In this document: positions 22,051 to 30,915 of the stretch, piece after piece
How positions within the stretch are numbered: the stretch's first letter is position 1
How the letters are laid out: each line of letters begins with the position of its first letter
Source of the DNA: Arthrobacter luteolus NBRC 107841
Lineage (GTDB): Bacteria > Actinomycetota > Actinomycetes > Actinomycetales > Micrococcaceae
DNA: 64,000 bases
Direction: 5' to 3'
NCBI RefSeq assembly: GCF_001552075.1
Contig: NZ_BCQM01000004.1
Coordinates: 248,001 to 312,000, forward strand
Position numbers and translations under genes: made by a program
The notes under the pieces: generated by a model
Seen by the model: only the letters and a program-made list of their open reading frames with translations
Databases searched by the model: none
Told to the model about the DNA's origin: nothing

Positions 22051-22184
22051 CGGCTGCGGCGGCGGGAAACCGGTTCCTACTCTGGACTGCGTTTCGCCGG
22101 GGATTTACAGTACAAGGCAGACTGGGCTGCGTTGTTCAGGTGCGGCGGCCGGGCTGAATTTCCTGCGGACCCAAGGTGGCGCTG

Positions 22185-23936
22185 ATGTCTACTCTGAAGT
22201 ACACGGCCGACGACGGAACAGCGGTACCGCCGCGGGTGGTCCCGGTATCCAAGGGCCGGGTGGTGGTGGACTGGCTGACCACCACGGACCACAAGAAGGT
22301 CGGCTATCTGTATCTGATCACGTCGTTTATCTTCTTCTGCCTGGCCGGCGTGATGGCACTGATCATCCGCGCCGAGCTCTTCCAGCCGGGCCTGGAAATC
22401 GTGGCGTCGCGGGAACAGTACAACCAGCTGTTCACCATGCACGGGACCCTGATGCTGCTGATGTTCGCCACCCCGCTGTTCGCCGGGTTCGCGAACGTGA
22501 TGATGCCGCTGCAGATCGGCGCACCGGACGTCGCGTTCCCGCGGCTCAACGCCTTGGCGTACTGGTTCTTCCTCTTCGGTTCGCTGATCGCGGTGTCCGG
22601 GTTTCTCACTCCGCAGGGGGCGGCGTCCTTCGGCTGGACGGCCTATGCGCCGTTGTCCAACACCGCTTTCTCGCCGGGAATCGGGGGTGATCTGTGGGTC
22701 TTTGGGCTCGCCCTGTCCGGGTTTGGAACCATTCTGGGATCGGTCAACTTCGTCACCACGATCATCTGCCTGCGCGCACCCGGGATGACGATGTGGCGGA
22801 TACCCATTTTCACCTGGAACACGCTGGTGACGGCGATTCTGGTGCTGATGGCTTTCCCGCCCCTGGCCGCCGCCCTGTTCGCGCTGGGGTTGGACCGCAA
22901 ATTCGACGCCCACATTTTCGATCCGGAGAACGGCGGCGCCATCCTCTGGCAGCACCTGTTCTGGTTCTTCGGCCATCCCGAGGTCTACATCATTGCCCTG
23001 CCCTTCTTCGGCATCATTTCCGAGATCATTCCGGTTTTCAGCCGCAAACCGATCTTCGGCTACAAGGGCCTGGTCTTCGCCACGATTGCGATCGCCGGGC
23101 TGTCCATGACTGTCTGGGCGCACCACATGTACGTCACCGGGCAGGTCTTCCTGCCGTTCTTCGCCCTGCTGACCATGTTCATTGCCGTGCCCACCGGCGT
23201 GAAGTTCTTCAACTGGATCGGCACCATGTGGCGCGGGTCCATCACCTTCGAAACGCCGATGATGTGGGCGCTGGGCTTCCTGATCACGTTCCTCTTCGGC
23301 GGGCTGACCGGCATCATCCTGTCCTCACCGCCCATGGACTTCCACGTCTCCGACACGTACTTCGTCGTCGCACACTTCCACTACGTGGTCTTTGGCACGG
23401 TGGTGTTTGCGATGTTCGGCGGGTTCTACTTCTGGTGGCCGAAGTGGACCGGGAAGATGCTCAACGAACGGCTCGGAAAGATCCACTTCTGGCTGCTCTT
23501 CCTGGGCTTCCACCTGACCTTCATGATCCAGCACTGGCTGGGTGTGCTGGGAATGCCCCGGCGGTACGCGGACTATCTGGTGGAGGACAACTTCACCGGT
23601 ATGAACCAGCTGTCCACGATCGGCTCCATGATTCTGGGCTTCTCCCTGATCCCGTTTTTCTGGAACGTGTACATCACCTGGCGGCGCGGCAAGAAGGTTG
23701 AGGTGGACGATCCCTGGGGCTTCGGCGGTTCCCTGGAATGGGCTACGTCCTGCCCGCCGCCGCGGCATAACTTTACGTCCCTGCCCAGGATCAGGTCCGA
23801 ACGGCCGGCCCTGGACCTGCACCACCCTGAGCTCAAACCGCGAGCCAACCAGAAATCCGATTCCCTGGCCGCCAGTGTCCTGGGTGCCGCGGATATGGGC
23901 TCCACCGATCCCAAGAACCCTGATCCCCGGCAGTAG
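22185..23936 (+). CDS. ctaD: Cytochrome c oxidase subunit I CtaD
   Basis: CtaD is the heme-copper catalytic subunit of the aa3-type terminal oxidase. The 583-residue membrane protein shows the low-spin heme ligand in [12 protein letters not shown], CuB and cross-linked tyrosine in FGHPEVYI, the CuB histidine pair in WAHHMYVTG, and [12 protein letters not shown] for both hemes. All are present, so the enzyme should be active. I start at the ATG at 22185 with AAGG eight bases upstream, not at the GTG nine bases earlier. No ctaC, ctaE or ctaF lies next to it, so this is probably an extra or detached copy. Confidence 0.95.
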
Positions 23937-24067: not shown

Positions 24068-25162
24068 TTAGCTGCTTTGCCGGCCTGCTCGCCTGATCAG
24101 TACCAGTCCGGCACCGAGCAACGGAAGCGCCAGCCACAACAGGACCATGCCCGCTGCTCCGGTGTCAGCCAGGTTGCTCGATGAAACCTCAGCCGTCGCC
24201 GCGGATGTCCTGAGCGGTGTTTCGGTAGCGGGTACGGAAGTAAACCGGGTCGTTTCCTCCGCAACGAAGGACACAGATGTCGGCTCAGGTCCTACATTCG
24301 GCTGTGTCCCTGCAGGAGGCGTGGTTCCAGCAGGAATCACTACGGGAAGTGTGACTCCTGGACGGGGCCCGGCTGGGGGCACAGAGCCCGGGGTGCTGGT
24401 CCCGGTGTCCCTGGTGGTCTCGGTGGTGGCTTCGCCGAGGACTGCTAGGGAGTTGGTGCCGAGGTTGACGGGGATGGTGATGGGTGCGGTGATCTGGGTT
24501 CCGGAGAGGAATCCGTCGGAGCCGGAGGTTACGGGTCCGGTGCTCTCTGCCGGTGTCCCGGTTGCCGCGTCTGTCCCGGTGGTCTCGGTGGTGGCTTCGC
24601 CGAGGACTGCTAGGGAGTTGGTGCCGAGGTTGACGGGGATGGTGATGGGTGCGGTGATCTGGGTTCCGGAGAGGAGCCCGTTGGAGCCGGAGGTTACGGG
24701 TCCGGTGCTCTCTGCCGGTGTCCCGGTTGCCGCGTCTGTCCCGGTGGTCTCGGTGTTCCTGGTGGTCTCGGTGGTGGCTTCGCCGAGGACTGCTAGGGAG
24801 TTGGTGCCGAGGTTGACGGGGATGGTGATGGGTGCGGTGATCTGGGTTCCGGAGAGGAGTCCGTTGGAGCCGGAGGTTACGGGTTCCGCGCTCTCTGCCG
24901 GTGTCCCGGTTGCCGCGTCTGTCCCGGTGTTCCCGGTGGTCTCGGTGTTCCTGGTGGTCTCGGTGGTGGCTTCGCCGAGGACTGCGAGGGAGTTGGTGCC
25001 GAGGTTGACGGGGATGGTGATGGGTGCGGTGATCTGGGTTCCGGAGAGGAGTCCGTCGGAGCCGGAGGTTACGGGTTCCGCGCTGGCCGCGGTTGTTCCA
25101 AGGGCCAGCAATCCTCCGGCAAAGAGGGTGCCGAGCAGCCCTCGTCGAATAGTGCAACGCAT
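24068..25162 (-). CDS. Chaplin-like surface protein: four cysteine-free repeats and LAXTG sortase anchor
   Basis: A 364-residue exported protein. A signal peptide (1-28, ending ASA) leads into four near-identical repeats starting at residues 29, 93, 154 and 209. Each has the core GLLSGTQITAPITIPVNLG and then TNSLAVLGEA. This aligns without gaps to the chaplin domain pattern (GxLSGNxxxxPxxxPVNxCGNxxxVxG), except that the cysteine is replaced. Linkers are Thr/Glu-rich and vary in length. After a Pro/Thr-rich stalk come LADTG (331-335), a hydrophobic helix and a basic tail, which is a class E sortase signal of LAXTG type as used by long chaplins ChpA-C in Streptomyces. It is therefore predicted to be wall-anchored, with a possible amyloid or surface-active role. 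GGAG precedes the ATG. Confidence 0.8.
   Translation of the reverse strand: MRCTIRRGLLGTLFAGGLLALGTTAASAEPVTSGSDGLLSGTQITAPITIPVNLGTNSLAVLGEATTETTRNTETTGNTGTDAATGTPAESAEPVTSGSNGLLSGTQITAPITIPVNLGTNSLAVLGEATTETTRNTETTGTDAATGTPAESTGPVTSGSNGLLSGTQITAPITIPVNLGTNSLAVLGEATTETTGTDAATGTPAESTGPVTSGSDGFLSGTQITAPITIPVNLGTNSLAVLGEATTETTRDTGTSTPGSVPPAGPRPGVTLPVVIPAGTTPPAGTQPNVGPEPTSVSFVAEETTRFTSVPATETPLRTSAATAEVSSSNLADTGAAGMVLLWLALPLLGAGLVLIRRAGRQSS
24412..25090 (-). repeat. Four long in-frame DNA repeats encoding the chaplin-like domains
   Basis: Four segments of about 110 identical or nearly identical bases recur at intervals of about 192, 183 and 165 bases. The variable part is the linker, made of ACCACCGAGACC-type codons. 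The near-identity at silent positions points to recent duplication or gene conversion. Confidence 0.85.
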
Positions 25163-25246
25163 AGCAATTCTCCTGACAAGTAATTGGGATGGGGCCCATG
25201 GGGCCCGAATGGCATTTGTCCGGCTGCATAACGGACAGAGGCCTAA

Positions 25247-26278
25247 CTAATCAGGGAACGACTCGTGATCCAGCGACACACGTGAGGGGGCTTTCATCAG
25301 CTCCGTATAGGCGGGCAGCGCAGCCAGTGCCGGAATGTTGAGATGCTGCCCGGATAGGCAGCCGGGCAGTAAGGGGCCTGCTGCTGAAGGGCTCACAACC
25401 GACGATCCGGAGCCCACCGGCATGAGGCCACCTTGCGGTGCTCCCGCTGGACCCCCGGAATCCGGGCCAGAAGACACGGATAGTGCGGCCTCTGGCGAGA
25501 CTTCAGCGCAGGACTCTGCCGTACCCACAGCCGTATCTCCATGACTGGTCATGACCTCGGATACCGCAGGGGCCAAGGCATCTTCATCCGCGAGCTGTTC
25601 TGTTGCCGTCGGGAGCTGCTCAGGGGCCGGTTGGCGGTCTGGGGCAAAGCGGGGGCTGTCGGCTGTGCCCTCTGTCACCGCGTCGATGTCCGGAAGCGCT
25701 GGAATTACCGGGCTCCCGCTGCAGCCAGCCGCGGGAGGGGCAGCGGGATCTCCCTGGCCTTCGGGACAACCCTGGCCAGCCCCGACGTCGTTGGCCGGGG
25801 GGAGGACGGGATGCAGAGTCTCGAGGAGGCCGTCTGCGGTCGGCCGAATTGTCTCTACCGCAAAGCCGGCAATGTCGTCGACCACAGTCAGGATGGGATC
25901 CGTGGCTGCAGGCAACGTCTGCGCGGGTACCACCGTCCTCACCACCGGAACGGTCTGTACCAGCTCGTCGACTGCCGTTGCTACCCCATGGACTGCCGGC
26001 TGGAGACGGGGCACATCTGGCAGGGAAATTTCCGGCGCGGGAGCCTGGGCCGGTGTCTGTGAGGAAGGCAGCAGGCCGTCCGTCACCTGATCGACGGCAT
26101 TCACGGCGGAATCCACGAGGCCCGCAGCAGAAACACTCACGCTTGCTGGAAGGGAATCCGGTTCAGGCAGGGGGTCGGCCGAAGCACCGGTGGCCGACAG
26201 AGTCAGCCAGGAGGCGGCTGCGGCGGCTCCCAGGAGCACAGGGCGGACGAACCGCCAAGCTCCTCGTGACGCCCTCAT
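25247..26278 (-). CDS. Secreted protein of unknown function, upstream of the chaplin-like gene
   Basis: A 343-residue exported product with a clear signal peptide (residues 1-35, ending GASA). I recognise no catalytic domain. Residues about 45-155 show a repeating pattern of short amphipathic segments of Val, Asp and Pro (VDSAVNAVDQVTDGLLP, VDELVQTVPVVRTVVP, ILTVVDDIAGFAVETIRP). The second half is Pro/Ala/Ser-rich, with four cysteines in two clusters. There is no sortase motif and no membrane helix at the end. The ATG has GGGGGG eight to thirteen bases upstream. It lies 84 bases before the chaplin-like gene on the same strand, so the two may be co-expressed cell-surface components. Confidence 0.65.
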   Translation of the reverse strand: MRASRGAWRFVRPVLLGAAAAASWLTLSATGASADPLPEPDSLPASVSVSAAGLVDSAVNAVDQVTDGLLPSSQTPAQAPAPEISLPDVPRLQPAVHGVATAVDELVQTVPVVRTVVPAQTLPAATDPILTVVDDIAGFAVETIRPTADGLLETLHPVLPPANDVGAGQGCPEGQGDPAAPPAAGCSGSPVIPALPDIDAVTEGTADSPRFAPDRQPAPEQLPTATEQLADEDALAPAVSEVMTSHGDTAVGTAESCAEVSPEAALSVSSGPDSGGPAGAPQGGLMPVGSGSSVVSPSAAGPLLPGCLSGQHLNIPALAALPAYTELMKAPSRVSLDHESFPD

Positions 26279-26448: not shown

Positions 26449-29400
26449 CTAGCCGCGGCCCACCGTGCAGAGCAGATACCGTGCATAGTCAACCGCGTAT
26501 TTCAGCCAGCCGCGCAGGTCCCACCAGTTTTTCGGCGGGATGGGCCGCACGCAGGTCGGCTGCTGCGGTCCGGCTTCGACCGTGACCGGAATCGTCACCG
26601 TGGTCCCCGATGGGGCCGCCGTGAGGACCAGCGAACCGTTGCCGGATGCCGACGCCGGGATGGCCGCGGTAACGCTCGCCGCTCCGCCGGTCACCGGAAC
26701 CGATCCCAGGGCGATGGCTGCACCGGCGGCCGGAACCCAGCTCACTGCGAGCGTGGTGTTGGCCGGGCTGCCCAGCGAGGTCAGGTCCAGCTTCTCCACT
26801 GTGAAGGTGGCGCTGGCACCCGCCTTCACAGTGGCAGGTGCGCCCTTGACGATAACGCCCTGCCGGGCGAAATCGGGGGAGACCGGGCTGTTGGCCTGGA
26901 GGTAGCTGATCCAGGCATCGCGGTCGATCAGCCCGGAGTCCCGGGTGTCGGTGCCCTGGGCGAAGGTGGAGAAATTGTCCCCGCCCTGTGCCAGGAAGCT
27001 GAACGTCCCCACCCGGTAGGCCCGGGCGGTGTCCAGCGGAGCGCCGTTGACGGTTACCGACTGGATCCTGGAACCGCGGGCCAGGTCCGGGTTATAGGTG
27101 TAGGTGACGTTGTCGGAGAGGCCCAGTGCCAGGAACGGCCGCGAACTTCCGTCCGGCTGCCACTGCTCCTCCAGGACTGCCTTCAGCTGCGCACCCGTGA
27201 GCGTGGTGGTCCACAGATTGTTCACGAACGGCAGGACGGCGTTGGCTTCGGCGTAGGTAATGACACCATCCGGGCCGTAATACAGCTCCGCGCGGAGCCC
27301 GCCGGGGTTGGTGATGCCGATTTCCGCACCGCCGCGCTCGGGAGCGCCCAGCGAAGAGAGCAGCGAGTCCGCCACGAGGTTGCCCAGCGTGGATTCGTTG
27401 GACCGGTCATCCCGGGAGGCGCCGGTAAAGGCCGTCGTGATGTCCGCGGTTACCGAGCCGACCGGCTGGTTGCCGACCTCGGCCGCGAACGCCAGGGCGG
27501 CGTCGACAATCCGCTTCACTTCAGCGACGGCCGGGTAGGCCGCCACCAGTTCGGCAGCAGGGGTGGCGGTCCGTGCGACGTTACCGGCCGTGTAGGAAAG
27601 CACCTCGTCCGTCTCGGCGTTGTACTCGAGCTCGATCTGACCGATGAACTCACCGTAGGAACCGGTCTGGACCACGGGGCGGGTTTTGCCCTCGACGCCG
27701 GGAACCGGTGCGTCCCACGCGTACTGCTTGTGCGTGTGCCCGGTGTAGATGGCATCCACCAGCGCGCTGGTTTCCGTCACGATCTCCGCGAACGCACCGC
27801 CGCCGGCAACCTCCTCCTCGAGGGTGGCGCCGTCGGGCGTGCCCGCACCGGCGCCTTCGTGGTATTCGGCAATGATGACGTCGGCCAGGCCCTCAGCCAC
27901 GAGCCGTTCGGCCACGCGGTTCACGGCTTCCACCGGGTCCCCGAACTCCAGGGCGGCGATGCCGCCGGGGCTGACCAGCGTACCGGTCTCCTCGGTCACC
28001 GCGCCGATCACGGCCACCTTCACGCCGTTGACGTCCAGGAGGGCGTACTCGGGCAGCGCCGGAGTGGTGGTGCCCTTGAGGTAGACATTGGCGCCGAGGT
28101 ACTCGAAGTCCGCGGCAGGAACCACCCGGTCGGTGAGGTCGGCGAAACCGCCGTCGAACTCATGGTTGCCGACCGCCGAGGCCCGCAGGCCCAGGGCGTT
28201 CAGGACGTCGATGGTCGGCTGGTCCTGCTGCACCGAGGAAGCGAACAGGGACGCGCCGATGTTGTCGCCGGCGGAGAGGAACAGCGAACTGCCCTCCGGC
28301 GCGGCGGCCTTTAGCTGTTCAACGGTTCCGGCGAAGTTGACGGTGTTGCCGTCGATCCGGCCGTGGAAGTCGTTGATGTTCAGCAGGTTCAGCTCGGTGG
28401 TTTCCGCCTCGGCCGGGGTCAGGTTCAGGCCCACCAGGATGGGGTCATGGTCCGAGGACCGGTAGGCGTCCGGAGCGTAGAAGCTGGTTACGTTGTAGTT
28501 GAACCGGCTGTATTCCAGTGCCACGGATTCCACGGAGTTGATGTTCCAGATGTCCGTTCCGGTGACGTCTTCGGCCGCTGCCGGGGACGCCAGGATGTGG
28601 TCCAGGGACCCGACCAGGCCGCCGAAGGCGTAGGAGTGCTTGCCCGTGGCGTCACCCAGGTTCACGTATCCGGCCTCTGCCAGGATGCGCATGGGGTCCT
28701 CGGCGGCGTAGGAGTTGAAGTCACCCAGCAGGAAAACCCGCTCCGTGCCCGCGTCGGCCGCCACGGTGTCGGCGAAGGACACCAGTGCCTGCGCCTGGCG
28801 GACCCGGTCGGCGTTCCAGCCGCCCTGGCCGTTGTCCGCGTTTTCCCCGGAGGCCGGGGGTGAGCCCTTGGACTTGAAGTGGTTCGCGATGGCCACGAAG
28901 GATTCGCTGTCCGCTCCGCCGGCAGGCTTGAAGGCCTGGGCCAGCGGTTCACGGGCGTTGGAGAACACGCTTTCGTCATTGAGGATCACGGATTCGCCGA
29001 CAGGTTCAGCGTTCGCGGTCCGGTAGATGAAGGCCGTGCGGATGACGTCTTCGGCGTCGGGGAGGGCCGCGGGGGAGCGGACGTAGTCCCAGGTGCCGGG
29101 GGACACCGCGTTCAGGGCCGCAGTCAGGTGGGCGAGTGCCGTGTCACGGTCCTGCCCCAGCGCTGAGGAGTTCTCGATTTCCATCAGCCCGACGACGTCG
29201 GCGCCGAGTGCGTTGATCGCCTGGACGATCTTGGCCTGCTGGCGTTCCAGATTGGCCGCGTCGGCGGCACCGCGGGCGTCGCAGCCGCCGCGGACCGTGA
29301 TCGGGGCTCCGGAACGGTCGTTGAAATAGGTGCAGCCGGTGAGCTGGTCACCGGTGGTGCTGAAGTAGTTCAGCACGTTGAAGGACGCCAGTTTGAGGTT

Positions 29401-30915
29401 CCCGCCGACGCTTTGCGGTGCGGCGGTGCGGGTGTTCTCGAACGACGCCGGCTGGACCGTGGCCGCGTTGGCCGGGGTCAGCTCGGTGAGCGGCTGGAAC
29501 TTCCAGGCGCTGTTGCGGAAATCCAGGATCACATTCGTGGTGAACGCAGCCGGCGCCCCAACACGGACCGGGCCGGACGGGGTCAGGTACGGCAGCGGTT
29601 TGGACTGGTTCGCCGCAGCAAGGAAATTGGTGGTGGCGCCGTCGTCGAGCTTCACGGCCTTGGCCGCATTCCCTGCGGCAACAGCCGCGTGCTCCGGCGT
29701 TCCCAGGGGTGCGACGGCGGTGGGCTGGACCAGTGGTTCGGTACCGGCTGCGAGGCCGATCTCCGCGTACTGGTTCAGGGAGAAGTTATCGGTGACGGTG
29801 AAGTCGCCCTGGGGAGCAAGGAGCATGCCCTCCAGGGTTTCCCGTTCCGCGTCAGTGGCAGGCCAGGCGACGTTGGCTGGCTTAACCTCTTCGGCCGGCT
29901 CGGTGAGTTTGGTCAGGGCGCCGGCGGCGACCGTGAGCTGCGTGAGCCCGAAGTACTCGCCCACGGTGCCCGTGACTTCGACGTAGTCGCCAACAGCGAC
30001 CTGGCCCACGGTAGCTGCGGAGAACACGAAGATGCCGTCCGAAGCGGTGTGTGTGGCGGGATCGATCGTGCCGCCGGTTCCCGGGGTCTGCAGGTAATAG
30101 CCGCTGAATCCGCCCGTGGGGTAGGCCGCGGTGACCTTGCCGCGGGTGGTGACGTTCTGCCCGACGAGCGGGCTCGCATCGCCGGTTCCCTGGATGGCGG
30201 CAATGGCGACCGTACCGTCGGGCGGATCCGTGGGATCCGGCGGGTCGGTCGGATCAACGGGGCCCGTGCCGCCGCCGGCGGTGTTGGTTGGGGTGACCGT
30301 ACCGCTGAGCGTGAAGTCAGCCGCGTTGTTGTTCGTGTCCGCGAATCCCGTGCGGTTTAAGGACTTCGGGTCGCTGTTGCCCGCGGGTGCGGCGGCGGGT
30401 GCGGTTTCGAAGGTGTTCGAGGTGCCGTAGCCCAGCAGGTCAACGACGCCGGGCTGGCCGATCACCGAGCCGGTGGGGAGCGGGTTGACGGCCGTCGCCT
30501 GGTTGGCGAGCACCAGGGTTCCGGCGGCACCGGAGAAGCTGGCCCCGATGGTTGCATCCGCGGTGGGGAGGGCGGTGCCGGTTGTGCCGTTGCTGGCGCC
30601 CTGGATGAGGTAGTGGCCCCCGGCCGGAATGGTTCCACTGAGCCGGCCGATTCCGGACGGCGCCGTGGTTGTTCCCGCGGCGCGGTACTGCAGTGACCAG
30701 CCCTCCAGGCTGACCGGGGCGCTGGTGGGGTTGTAGAGCTCTACGAATTTATTGGTAAAGGGGGCGTTGGCGCTGCCGCCGCTCAGGTACGCCTCATTAA
30801 TGATGACGCCGCCCCCGCCTTCCTCGGCGTGGGCGGGCAGTGCCGCCAGGGGGCCGGCCAGCAGGCCGGCTGACAGTGCTGTTCCCAGCACCGCCTTCCA
30901 TCTCGTAGGTCTCAT
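26449..30915 (-). CDS. Exported ExeM/NucH-type endonuclease fused to a 5'-nucleotidase
   Basis: A 1488-residue secreted enzyme that probably degrades extracellular DNA and frees phosphate. Order: signal peptide (1-30), lamin-tail domain starting IINEAYLSGGSANAPF (about 36-170), a DPTDPPDPTDPPDG linker, an OB-like domain (about 235-345), and an exo/endonuclease domain (about 505-835) with LKLASFNVLNYF, VVGLMEIEN, LLGDFNS and SDHDPILV. A calcineurin-like phosphatase follows, starting NINDFHGRID at about 845 with GNHEFDGG and TGHTHKQY, then a 5'-nucleotidase C-terminal domain with NPGGLRAELY and QGGDNFSTF, then an Ig-like domain. It ends in a two-cysteine tail (WWDLRGWLKYAVDYARYLL) without sortase signal. 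All metal motifs are intact. Confidence 0.92.
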   Translation of the reverse strand: MRPTRWKAVLGTALSAGLLAGPLAALPAHAEEGGGGVIINEAYLSGGSANAPFTNKFVELYNPTSAPVSLEGWSLQYRAAGTTTAPSGIGRLSGTIPAGGHYLIQGASNGTTGTALPTADATIGASFSGAAGTLVLANQATAVNPLPTGSVIGQPGVVDLLGYGTSNTFETAPAAAPAGNSDPKSLNRTGFADTNNNAADFTLSGTVTPTNTAGGGTGPVDPTDPPDPTDPPDGTVAIAAIQGTGDASPLVGQNVTTRGKVTAAYPTGGFSGYYLQTPGTGGTIDPATHTASDGIFVFSAATVGQVAVGDYVEVTGTVGEYFGLTQLTVAAGALTKLTEPAEEVKPANVAWPATDAERETLEGMLLAPQGDFTVTDNFSLNQYAEIGLAAGTEPLVQPTAVAPLGTPEHAAVAAGNAAKAVKLDDGATTNFLAAANQSKPLPYLTPSGPVRVGAPAAFTTNVILDFRNSAWKFQPLTELTPANAATVQPASFENTRTAAPQSVGGNLKLASFNVLNYFSTTGDQLTGCTYFNDRSGAPITVRGGCDARGAADAANLERQQAKIVQAINALGADVVGLMEIENSSALGQDRDTALAHLTAALNAVSPGTWDYVRSPAALPDAEDVIRTAFIYRTANAEPVGESVILNDESVFSNAREPLAQAFKPAGGADSESFVAIANHFKSKGSPPASGENADNGQGGWNADRVRQAQALVSFADTVAADAGTERVFLLGDFNSYAAEDPMRILAEAGYVNLGDATGKHSYAFGGLVGSLDHILASPAAAEDVTGTDIWNINSVESVALEYSRFNYNVTSFYAPDAYRSSDHDPILVGLNLTPAEAETTELNLLNINDFHGRIDGNTVNFAGTVEQLKAAAPEGSSLFLSAGDNIGASLFASSVQQDQPTIDVLNALGLRASAVGNHEFDGGFADLTDRVVPAADFEYLGANVYLKGTTTPALPEYALLDVNGVKVAVIGAVTEETGTLVSPGGIAALEFGDPVEAVNRVAERLVAEGLADVIIAEYHEGAGAGTPDGATLEEEVAGGGAFAEIVTETSALVDAIYTGHTHKQYAWDAPVPGVEGKTRPVVQTGSYGEFIGQIELEYNAETDEVLSYTAGNVARTATPAAELVAAYPAVAEVKRIVDAALAFAAEVGNQPVGSVTADITTAFTGASRDDRSNESTLGNLVADSLLSSLGAPERGGAEIGITNPGGLRAELYYGPDGVITYAEANAVLPFVNNLWTTTLTGAQLKAVLEEQWQPDGSSRPFLALGLSDNVTYTYNPDLARGSRIQSVTVNGAPLDTARAYRVGTFSFLAQGGDNFSTFAQGTDTRDSGLIDRDAWISYLQANSPVSPDFARQGVIVKGAPATVKAGASATFTVEKLDLTSLGSPANTTLAVSWVPAAGAAIALGSVPVTGGAASVTAAIPASASGNGSLVLTAAPSGTTVTIPVTVEAGPQQPTCVRPIPPKNWWDLRGWLKYAVDYARYLLCTVGRG

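Follow-up and report, generated by a model that had tools for sequence, protein, structure and literature searches.

The chaplin locus of Arthrobacter luteolus

The gene at positions 24068-25162 on the minus strand of the window (i.e. the whole 64,000-nucleotide stretch of Arthrobacter luteolus DNA that was analysed) codes for a chaplin-family protein of 364 amino acids, in which a signal peptide and four cysteine-free chaplin domains are combined with a LADTG sorting signal. Directly upstream on the same strand lies a partner gene, P0002 (25247-26278), whose 343-residue product is likely to be secreted, judging by its N-terminus as read by eye; 84 nucleotides separate its stop codon from the chaplin start. 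Also on the minus strand, positions 26449-30915 encode a 1488-residue protein that unites a lamin-tail domain, an ExeM/NucH-type nuclease and a 5'-nucleotidase. A cytochrome c oxidase subunit I gene occupies 22176-23936 of the plus strand; its counterpart elsewhere in the same genome (G000:C2:278739-280454) is 86% identical, and each of the 29 members of the genus examined has two matches.

The signal peptide of the chaplin (residues 1-28; 25079-25162, minus strand) was read by eye as MRCTIRRGLLGTLFAGGLLALGTTAASA and contains the only cysteine of the protein, at residue 3. Sequence profile analysis with the PF03777 (ChpA-C) model recovered the protein with an E-value of 8.2e-29 (99.7 bits against a cut-off of 21) in four stretches of the minus strand, each of which also exceeds the cut-off on its own: 24968-25093 (domain 1, 34.6 bits), 24776-24892 (domain 2, 32.8 bits), 24590-24715 (domain 3, 29.6 bits) and 24428-24550 (domain 4, 28.5 bits). 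A preliminary description, made from the letters of the DNA, had proposed a chaplin-like protein with a signal peptide, four repeats and a terminal LADTG, helix and basic tail, and both the family and the architecture are borne out on the minus strand. The repeat core GLLSGTQITAPITIPVN is present in three of the four repeats, the fourth reading GFLSGTQ.., and the repeats with their linkers are spaced 55-64 residues apart (165, 183 and 192 nucleotides). At the DNA level they form four 196-nucleotide copies, the three others being 83-95% identical to the reference copy. A Pro/Thr/Gly-rich stretch connects the repeats to the LADTG motif (residues 331-335; 24158-24172, minus strand), which is followed by a hydrophobic helix (331-363 in the AlphaFold model) and the basic tail RRAGRQSS, as in class E sortase substrates. 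By analogy with the long chaplins of Streptomyces, which bear sortase signals and among which ChpC is described as anchored by class E sortases (PMC5618241, PMC5148588), the window protein would be anchored through this motif. A class E sortase, which the preliminary description had proposed to look for, is indeed encoded in the genome (257.6 bits against a cut-off of 160), where its gene adjoins a pabA/trpG-like gene and a pknB-like kinase gene (both named by eye); its presence is a test of low power, since 353 of 396 Micrococcales genomes possess such a sortase.

The AlphaFold model predicts several strands in every repeat with a local confidence of about 80, in a model whose overall confidence is low (51.7). 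Neither a failure to match the chaplin profile nor an unlike fold nor the absence of a class E sortase, the outcomes named in advance as speaking against a chaplin, was encountered. The NCBIfam models returned nothing meaningful for the protein (a single match at E 9.7), a search of solved structures by sequence found no relative, and the same genome yielded no further chaplin gene, two extra PF03777 matches lying below the cut-off.

The domains show several departures from the described form of the family. Their matches end at model position 47-48 of 57. The chaplin domain has been described as having three GN motifs 12-13 residues apart (PMC13251363); in the window protein GT, TN and GE are seen by eye near those places, and many of its relatives possess GN at the second of them. 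No cysteine follows the signal peptide, as had been noticed from the sequence, and the two cysteines per domain are hence lacking. However, this pair is not a strict mark of chaplins because there are known exceptions, namely the cysteine-free Streptomyces chaplin ChpE (reduced chaplins, too, are reported to form fibrils; PMC3079736) and the cysteine-free C-terminal domain of ChpB from S. coelicolor (PMC13251363). The window protein shares the absence of the two cysteines with both, but ChpE is a short one-domain chaplin and ChpB has a second, cysteine-bearing domain. The earlier statement that the cysteines are replaced by glycine or threonine stands in part: glycine occupies the first Streptomyces cysteine column (by eye), whereas the threonine at the second is valid only with an ungapped extension into the linker, since that column lies beyond the supported alignment. 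Compared with ChpA-C of Streptomyces coelicolor, the protein shares the tandem PF03777 domains, the signal peptide and the class E sortase LAxTG signal, but it has four domains rather than two, is free of cysteine, and its domain match stops before the segment with the third GN and the second cysteine. Thus, on the evidence of its sequence, it is a real member of the chaplin family, of a lineage-wide cysteine-free type.

Cysteines across chaplin lineages

The lineage-wide nature of this type emerged from a count of cysteines in all the domains recovered with a profile that had been built up from Micrococcales domains. None was seen in the 80 domains from Micrococcaceae outside the genus g32, in the 105 from other Micrococcales or in the 484 from named Micrococcales loci, i.e. 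in 0 of 669 counted Micrococcales domains outside g32. The design of the window chaplin is therefore not unique, and the view that it is an unusual one is not supported: in the Micrococcales examined, one genus excepted, chaplins with several repeats and without cysteine are the norm. That genus, g32 of the family Micrococcaceae, has cysteines in 16 of 27 domains. Elsewhere they are present in 111 of 120 domains of the kinship group f35 ('filamentous-type' in our reading), in 62 of 64 of the kinship group f37 ('Streptomyces-like' in our reading) and in 25 of 29 from named Microbispora and Actinomadura loci, the f35 and f37 loci being the best PF03777 matches and these two samples hence biased towards cysteine. 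Seven named loci were omitted from the count, six being on contigs already counted and L166 being the locus already counted as L011. An LAxTG motif is found within the last 70 residues at 66 of the 78 named loci, some of the others being cut by contig ends.

Relative to a conserved asparagine column the cysteines lie at -2 and +16 in f37 (61 of each), mostly at -2 and +12 in f35, and at -1 and +12 in g32 (16 of each); the g32 positions suggest an independent origin or a displacement of the disulphide. Proteins with a cysteine-free first domain or domains and mostly cysteine-bearing later ones were observed seven times in f35, three times in Microbispora, once in Actinomadura and in all three g32 proteins. 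In the latter (L018, L021 and L026) the first 2-4 domains are cysteine-free and most later domains have two cysteines. Tandem expansion was considered as a cause of cysteine loss and rejected, as f35 proteins with 4-8 domains keep cysteines in most of them.

A chaplin-like protein was reported in 2013 from the non-sporulating Arthrobacter chlorophenolicus (PMC4255298), and a literature search on Micrococcales chaplins, with subscription journals mostly outside its coverage, found nothing beyond this paper among the matches listed. At a locus (L171) of this organism, now Pseudarthrobacter chlorophenolicus, we observed six cysteine-free domains, an LANTG motif, a partner ending in FDPGSSPD and a predicted stem with a pairing probability of 0.77; the accessible part of that paper makes no mention of the absence of cysteine, the partner gene or the RNA stem. 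What is new here is the conserved partner gene together with a predicted stem that would hide the ribosome-binding site (RBS), and not the cysteine-free chaplin itself.

A conserved partner gene with a PD tail

P0002 matched no family in Pfam or NCBIfam. Its AlphaFold model, of low confidence (48.4), begins with the signal peptide as the first of four helices, which occupy the N-terminal half, and most of the remainder is predicted to be disordered. The C-terminus reads SLDHESFPD, its final PD being shared with most of the genes that precede the chaplins examined in the order. For these comparisons PF03777 matches were collected from 22 genomes of the family, of which G276, G282, G288 and G390 (L025, L032, L031 and L029) were dropped as artefacts (three are antisense to a cysteine-synthase-like gene and one is another protein), and from 19 genomes of the order, of which G598 (L050) was likewise dropped. 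Among the 18 loci of the first set, that from Micrococcaceae, 17 have a chaplin preceded by an ORF that ends in PD and a stop codon, and the eighteenth (L016) has no flank; similarity to P0002 itself is significant in just part of these ORFs. Of the 16 genuine loci with flanking sequence in the set from other Micrococcales, 14 have such an ORF; the case of L045 is doubtful and the upstream ORF of L056 has a different ending, which speaks against a universal module. When the upstream ORF was picked by third-position GC alone, 76 of 78 named loci had one ending in PD, typically as FDPGSSPD or TDVSPD. The window chaplin thus forms the downstream half of a module of two genes, and in most of the Micrococcales loci examined a relative of P0002, or else a gene with a tail of this kind, occupies the position upstream of the chaplin.

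Outside the order no PD tail precedes the chaplin at the Streptomyces-like f37 loci, which further distinguishes the window locus with its P0002-type gene from ChpA-C. Upstream genes ending in SPD or TPD do occur at five f35 loci (L117, L118, L120, L122 and L123) and in Microbispora (L201, L202 and L210). The gaps from the tail to the chaplin are 187-313 nucleotides in f35 and Microbispora where measured (i.e. not in L123), and 187-348 nucleotides in Microbispora, f35 and Actinomadura where computed, with no predicted pairing of the tail to the Shine-Dalgarno (SD) sequence. Part of the conservation of the tail may therefore be at the protein level, and the view that it is purely an RNA feature was not accepted, given the unpaired tails of Microbispora and f35.

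Within the genus the chaplin was detected in 2 of 29 genomes, both with PF03777 and with a profile of 24 Micrococcales domains, and P0002 is found only in these two. Over 18 kb the second of them (G004) can be aligned collinearly with the window at 80.6% identity. In G012, G005 and G006 the chaplin module is missing between the ExeM-like gene and ctaD, which face each other; their ends are some 160 nucleotides apart in G006. We infer that, within the genus, the module has been acquired or lost in one piece, and the ExeM-like/ctaD site may be a place that exchanges cargo. At the same site in G012 (L137) and G005 (L138) there is other sequence, in which an ORF resembling short-chain dehydrogenases and a small ORF of unknown kind were seen by eye. 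A phage origin was unsupported, as the viral contigs contained no relative, as was a plasmid origin, for which the plasmid collection offered one record, from Nonomuraea gerenzanensis, at 33.5% identity.

A predicted intercistronic stem involving the partner tail

In the window the last three codons of P0002, TTC CCT GAT (25250-25258, minus strand), are predicted to form the anti-SD strand of a stem, with the SD region of the chaplin, TCAGGAGAA (25168-25176, minus strand), paired to them at a probability of 0.80. An inner hairpin (25217-25237, minus strand) lies between the two strands. The intercistronic region folds with a z-score of -2.67, 4 of 200 shuffles folding equally well, and a search of window positions 24900-25500 against the Rfam 15 covariance models was negative up to E 1. 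Across Micrococcales loci the end of the partner ORF is commonly TCT CCT GAC plus the stop codon, i.e. the reverse complement of the chaplin SD sequence TCAGGAGA. Partition-function folds place the SD in pairs with the tail at a probability above 0.5 in 72 of 75 Micrococcales regions, the window included; the three that do not favour the stem are L170 (0.01), L211 (0.15) and L222 (0.47). The duplex energy of the tail against the RBS has a median rank of 0.044 among all 20-nucleotide windows of its own locus (78 loci), being below 0.01 in 23, below 0.05 in 40 and above 0.5 in none, with Microbispora among the weakest. L241, for which no start was found, is absent from these intercistronic counts, as are, where stated, L201, L202 and L210 of Microbispora and L243 of Actinomadura; L018 and L026, although they have the tail, stand outside all pairing counts because automatic choice of the start failed.

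Codon usage in the tail departs strongly from that in the body of the same ORFs. Proline is encoded by CCT in 67.6% of tails as against 11.8% in the body, and by CCG in 0 of 74 as against 44%, while TCT is used at the serine position in 70.3% as against 8.9%. When synonymous tails were drawn from body usage, the mean pairing fell from 0.878 to 0.479, the native tail being higher in 65 of 68 cases. Complementarity between tail and SD is thus conserved beyond codon needs. Tail and site also change together: GGGGA ribosome sites occur at 5 of the 16 loci with TCCCC tails and at 0 of the 58 without, and individual examples include ACTCC with GGAGT in L049 and CCCGA with CGGGAGA in L047. In permutation tests that treated loci without regard to relatedness, the native tail-RBS pairs of the TGA-stop group beat the permuted ones (0 of 5000 permutations as good), whereas those of the TAG-stop, Arthrobacter-like group, which includes the window, were not better (1958 of 5000 as good). 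At anchored positions the paired fraction was 0.792 against 0.772 when permuted and double changes numbered 10 against 3.1, values unreached in 2000 permutations of the same kind. Covariation of tail and site is hence present in the TGA-stop group and is not measurable in the Arthrobacter-like group.

The specificity of the pairing differs between the two strands. Among 192 other presumed gene ends a median of 1.0% (1.6% in the window) pair as well with the chaplin RBS, and the figure is below 5% at 61 of 74 loci. Other SD-ATG sites pair as well with the tail in a median of 23% of cases (10% in the window); we counted this against coupling, although it is as expected of a tail that is itself an anti-SD strand. 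An exact stem pattern searched genome-wide gave 7 matches in 332 genomes and 0 with a reversed control. The genome of the window was not among the 7, its stem being bulged, which was likewise counted against coupling. In each of the 7 the stem separates an in-frame ORF (360-503 codons, with SPD at its end) from a gene whose product bears a signal peptide as judged by eye; 5 of these downstream proteins are chaplins by profile, and in those of L245 (G580) and L247 (G037) a profile search found no chaplin domain even at E 10. The latter two are repeat-rich proteins with a chaplin-like signal peptide and the same stem and SPD-ending partner upstream, and they may be divergent chaplins or surface proteins of another kind that share this control.

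A MAFFT alignment of 64 of the 68 non-redundant intercistronic regions (A3) was prepared by removing L170, L217, L224 and L227 by hand; it is slightly favourable, since L170 is the worst-folding Micrococcales locus. On this alignment RNAalifold recovered the inner hairpin, all 6 pairs of which show compensatory changes, and did not report the SD stem.

Proposed translational coupling and alternative readings

In RNA-unfolding coupling, translation of an upstream gene opens a structure that hides the RBS of the downstream one, as described for the rpmI-rplT pair of Escherichia coli with a spacing of +52 nucleotides (PMC12548453). The architecture described above leads us to favour, as a probable if by no means certain reading, a wall-anchored cysteine-free chaplin that is the second gene of its module and is coupled in this manner to its partner. 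In such a scheme the mRNA would fold so that the chaplin RBS is hidden in the stem until a ribosome nears the end of the partner gene. The terminating ribosome would cover the pairing strand, because this strand consists of the last codons of the partner ORF, and would thereby free the RBS, so that the chaplin would be made only where the partner has just been made. Synthesis of the chaplin would then depend on that of the partner. The chaplin might next be exported and joined to peptidoglycan through LADTG by a class E sortase, and its repeats could establish beta-rich, probably amyloid-like contacts that render the surface hydrophobic or adhesive in the absence of disulphides. For the partner, the probable role is that of a helper secreted alongside the chaplin or of a protein that assembles with it. 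A structure hiding the RBS is shared with rpmI-rplT, MS2 coat-lysis and f1 VII-IX, for which opening by upstream translation is described (PMC12548453); the coupling at the window is deduced, its gap of 84 nucleotides is long, it is kept across several genera and it concerns a chaplin with an uncharacterised partner. The gaps at Micrococcales loci in general (79-134 nucleotides) are also long for coupling and were counted against it.

An ordinary cysteine-free long chaplin whose neighbour carries SPD as a protein motif, for instance a partner-binding tail, with the SD match following from the codons, would account for the SPD/TPD tails of Microbispora, five f35 loci and Actinomadura, which do not pair with the SD where computed. 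It would also fit the residual mean pairing of 0.48 in synonymous tails and the reach of the conserved residues upstream of the pairing (FDPGSSPD, TDVSPD). It does not readily explain why TCT and CCT, which are minor codons elsewhere, are used so strongly and CCG is absent, why GGGGA sites are restricted to loci with TCCCC tails, or why the pairing, in folds inspected by eye, runs past the stop codon into lineage-specific complementary flanks, and we regard it as improbable. Less probable still is an intercistronic RNA that acts as a thermometer, a binding site for a protein or small RNA, or a stability element, and keeps the chaplin RBS hidden until a signal arrives. Such an element would agree with the compensated inner hairpin and with a window fold better than most shuffles, but no Rfam family was recovered from 24900-25500, and the pairing strand coincides with the in-frame last codons of the upstream ORF at 74 Micrococcales loci and in the 7 pattern matches.

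The remaining alternative concerns the protein, which might be a chaplin in sequence alone and function here as a flexible wall-anchored adhesin or stalk without amyloid. Neither the third GN segment nor either of the two Streptomyces cysteine columns is present in the domains, whose matches end as noted at 47-48 of 57; the linkers are long and of low complexity, and the confidence of the structural model is low. Against this, cysteines are reported as dispensable for chaplin fibrils in vitro, with the cysteine-less ChpE forming fibrils (PMC3079736), so that we consider the adhesin or stalk a serious contender that nonetheless falls short of being likely. By homology and the precedent of ChpE, amyloid assembly of the window chaplin appears plausible, with the qualification that its domain is shortened. 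Building on the favoured coupled module, it might tentatively be proposed that the chaplin amyloid of Micrococcales is under a translational licence, in which the partner, as chaperone, nucleator or co-assembly protein, replaces the disulphide- and rodlin-dependent assembly of Streptomyces; we would give this extension less than even weight.

Implications for chaplin biology

Research on chaplins has centred on their role in coating aerial hyphae and spores. A multi-domain, cysteine-free version that bears a sorting signal and has a constant partner gene, in non-mycelial genera such as Arthrobacter, Pseudarthrobacter, Paenarthrobacter and Microbacterium, provides simple hosts in which to address the role of chaplins without aerial growth and the need for the disulphide in vivo. 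If the coupling is real, the conserved stem would keep a sticky amyloid-type protein from being made alone, and the unstudied P0002-type family would be a place to seek a chaplin assembly factor. Were the licence reading true as well, the stem could also serve to find surface proteins that are missed by domain models, with the products of L245 and L247 as candidates.
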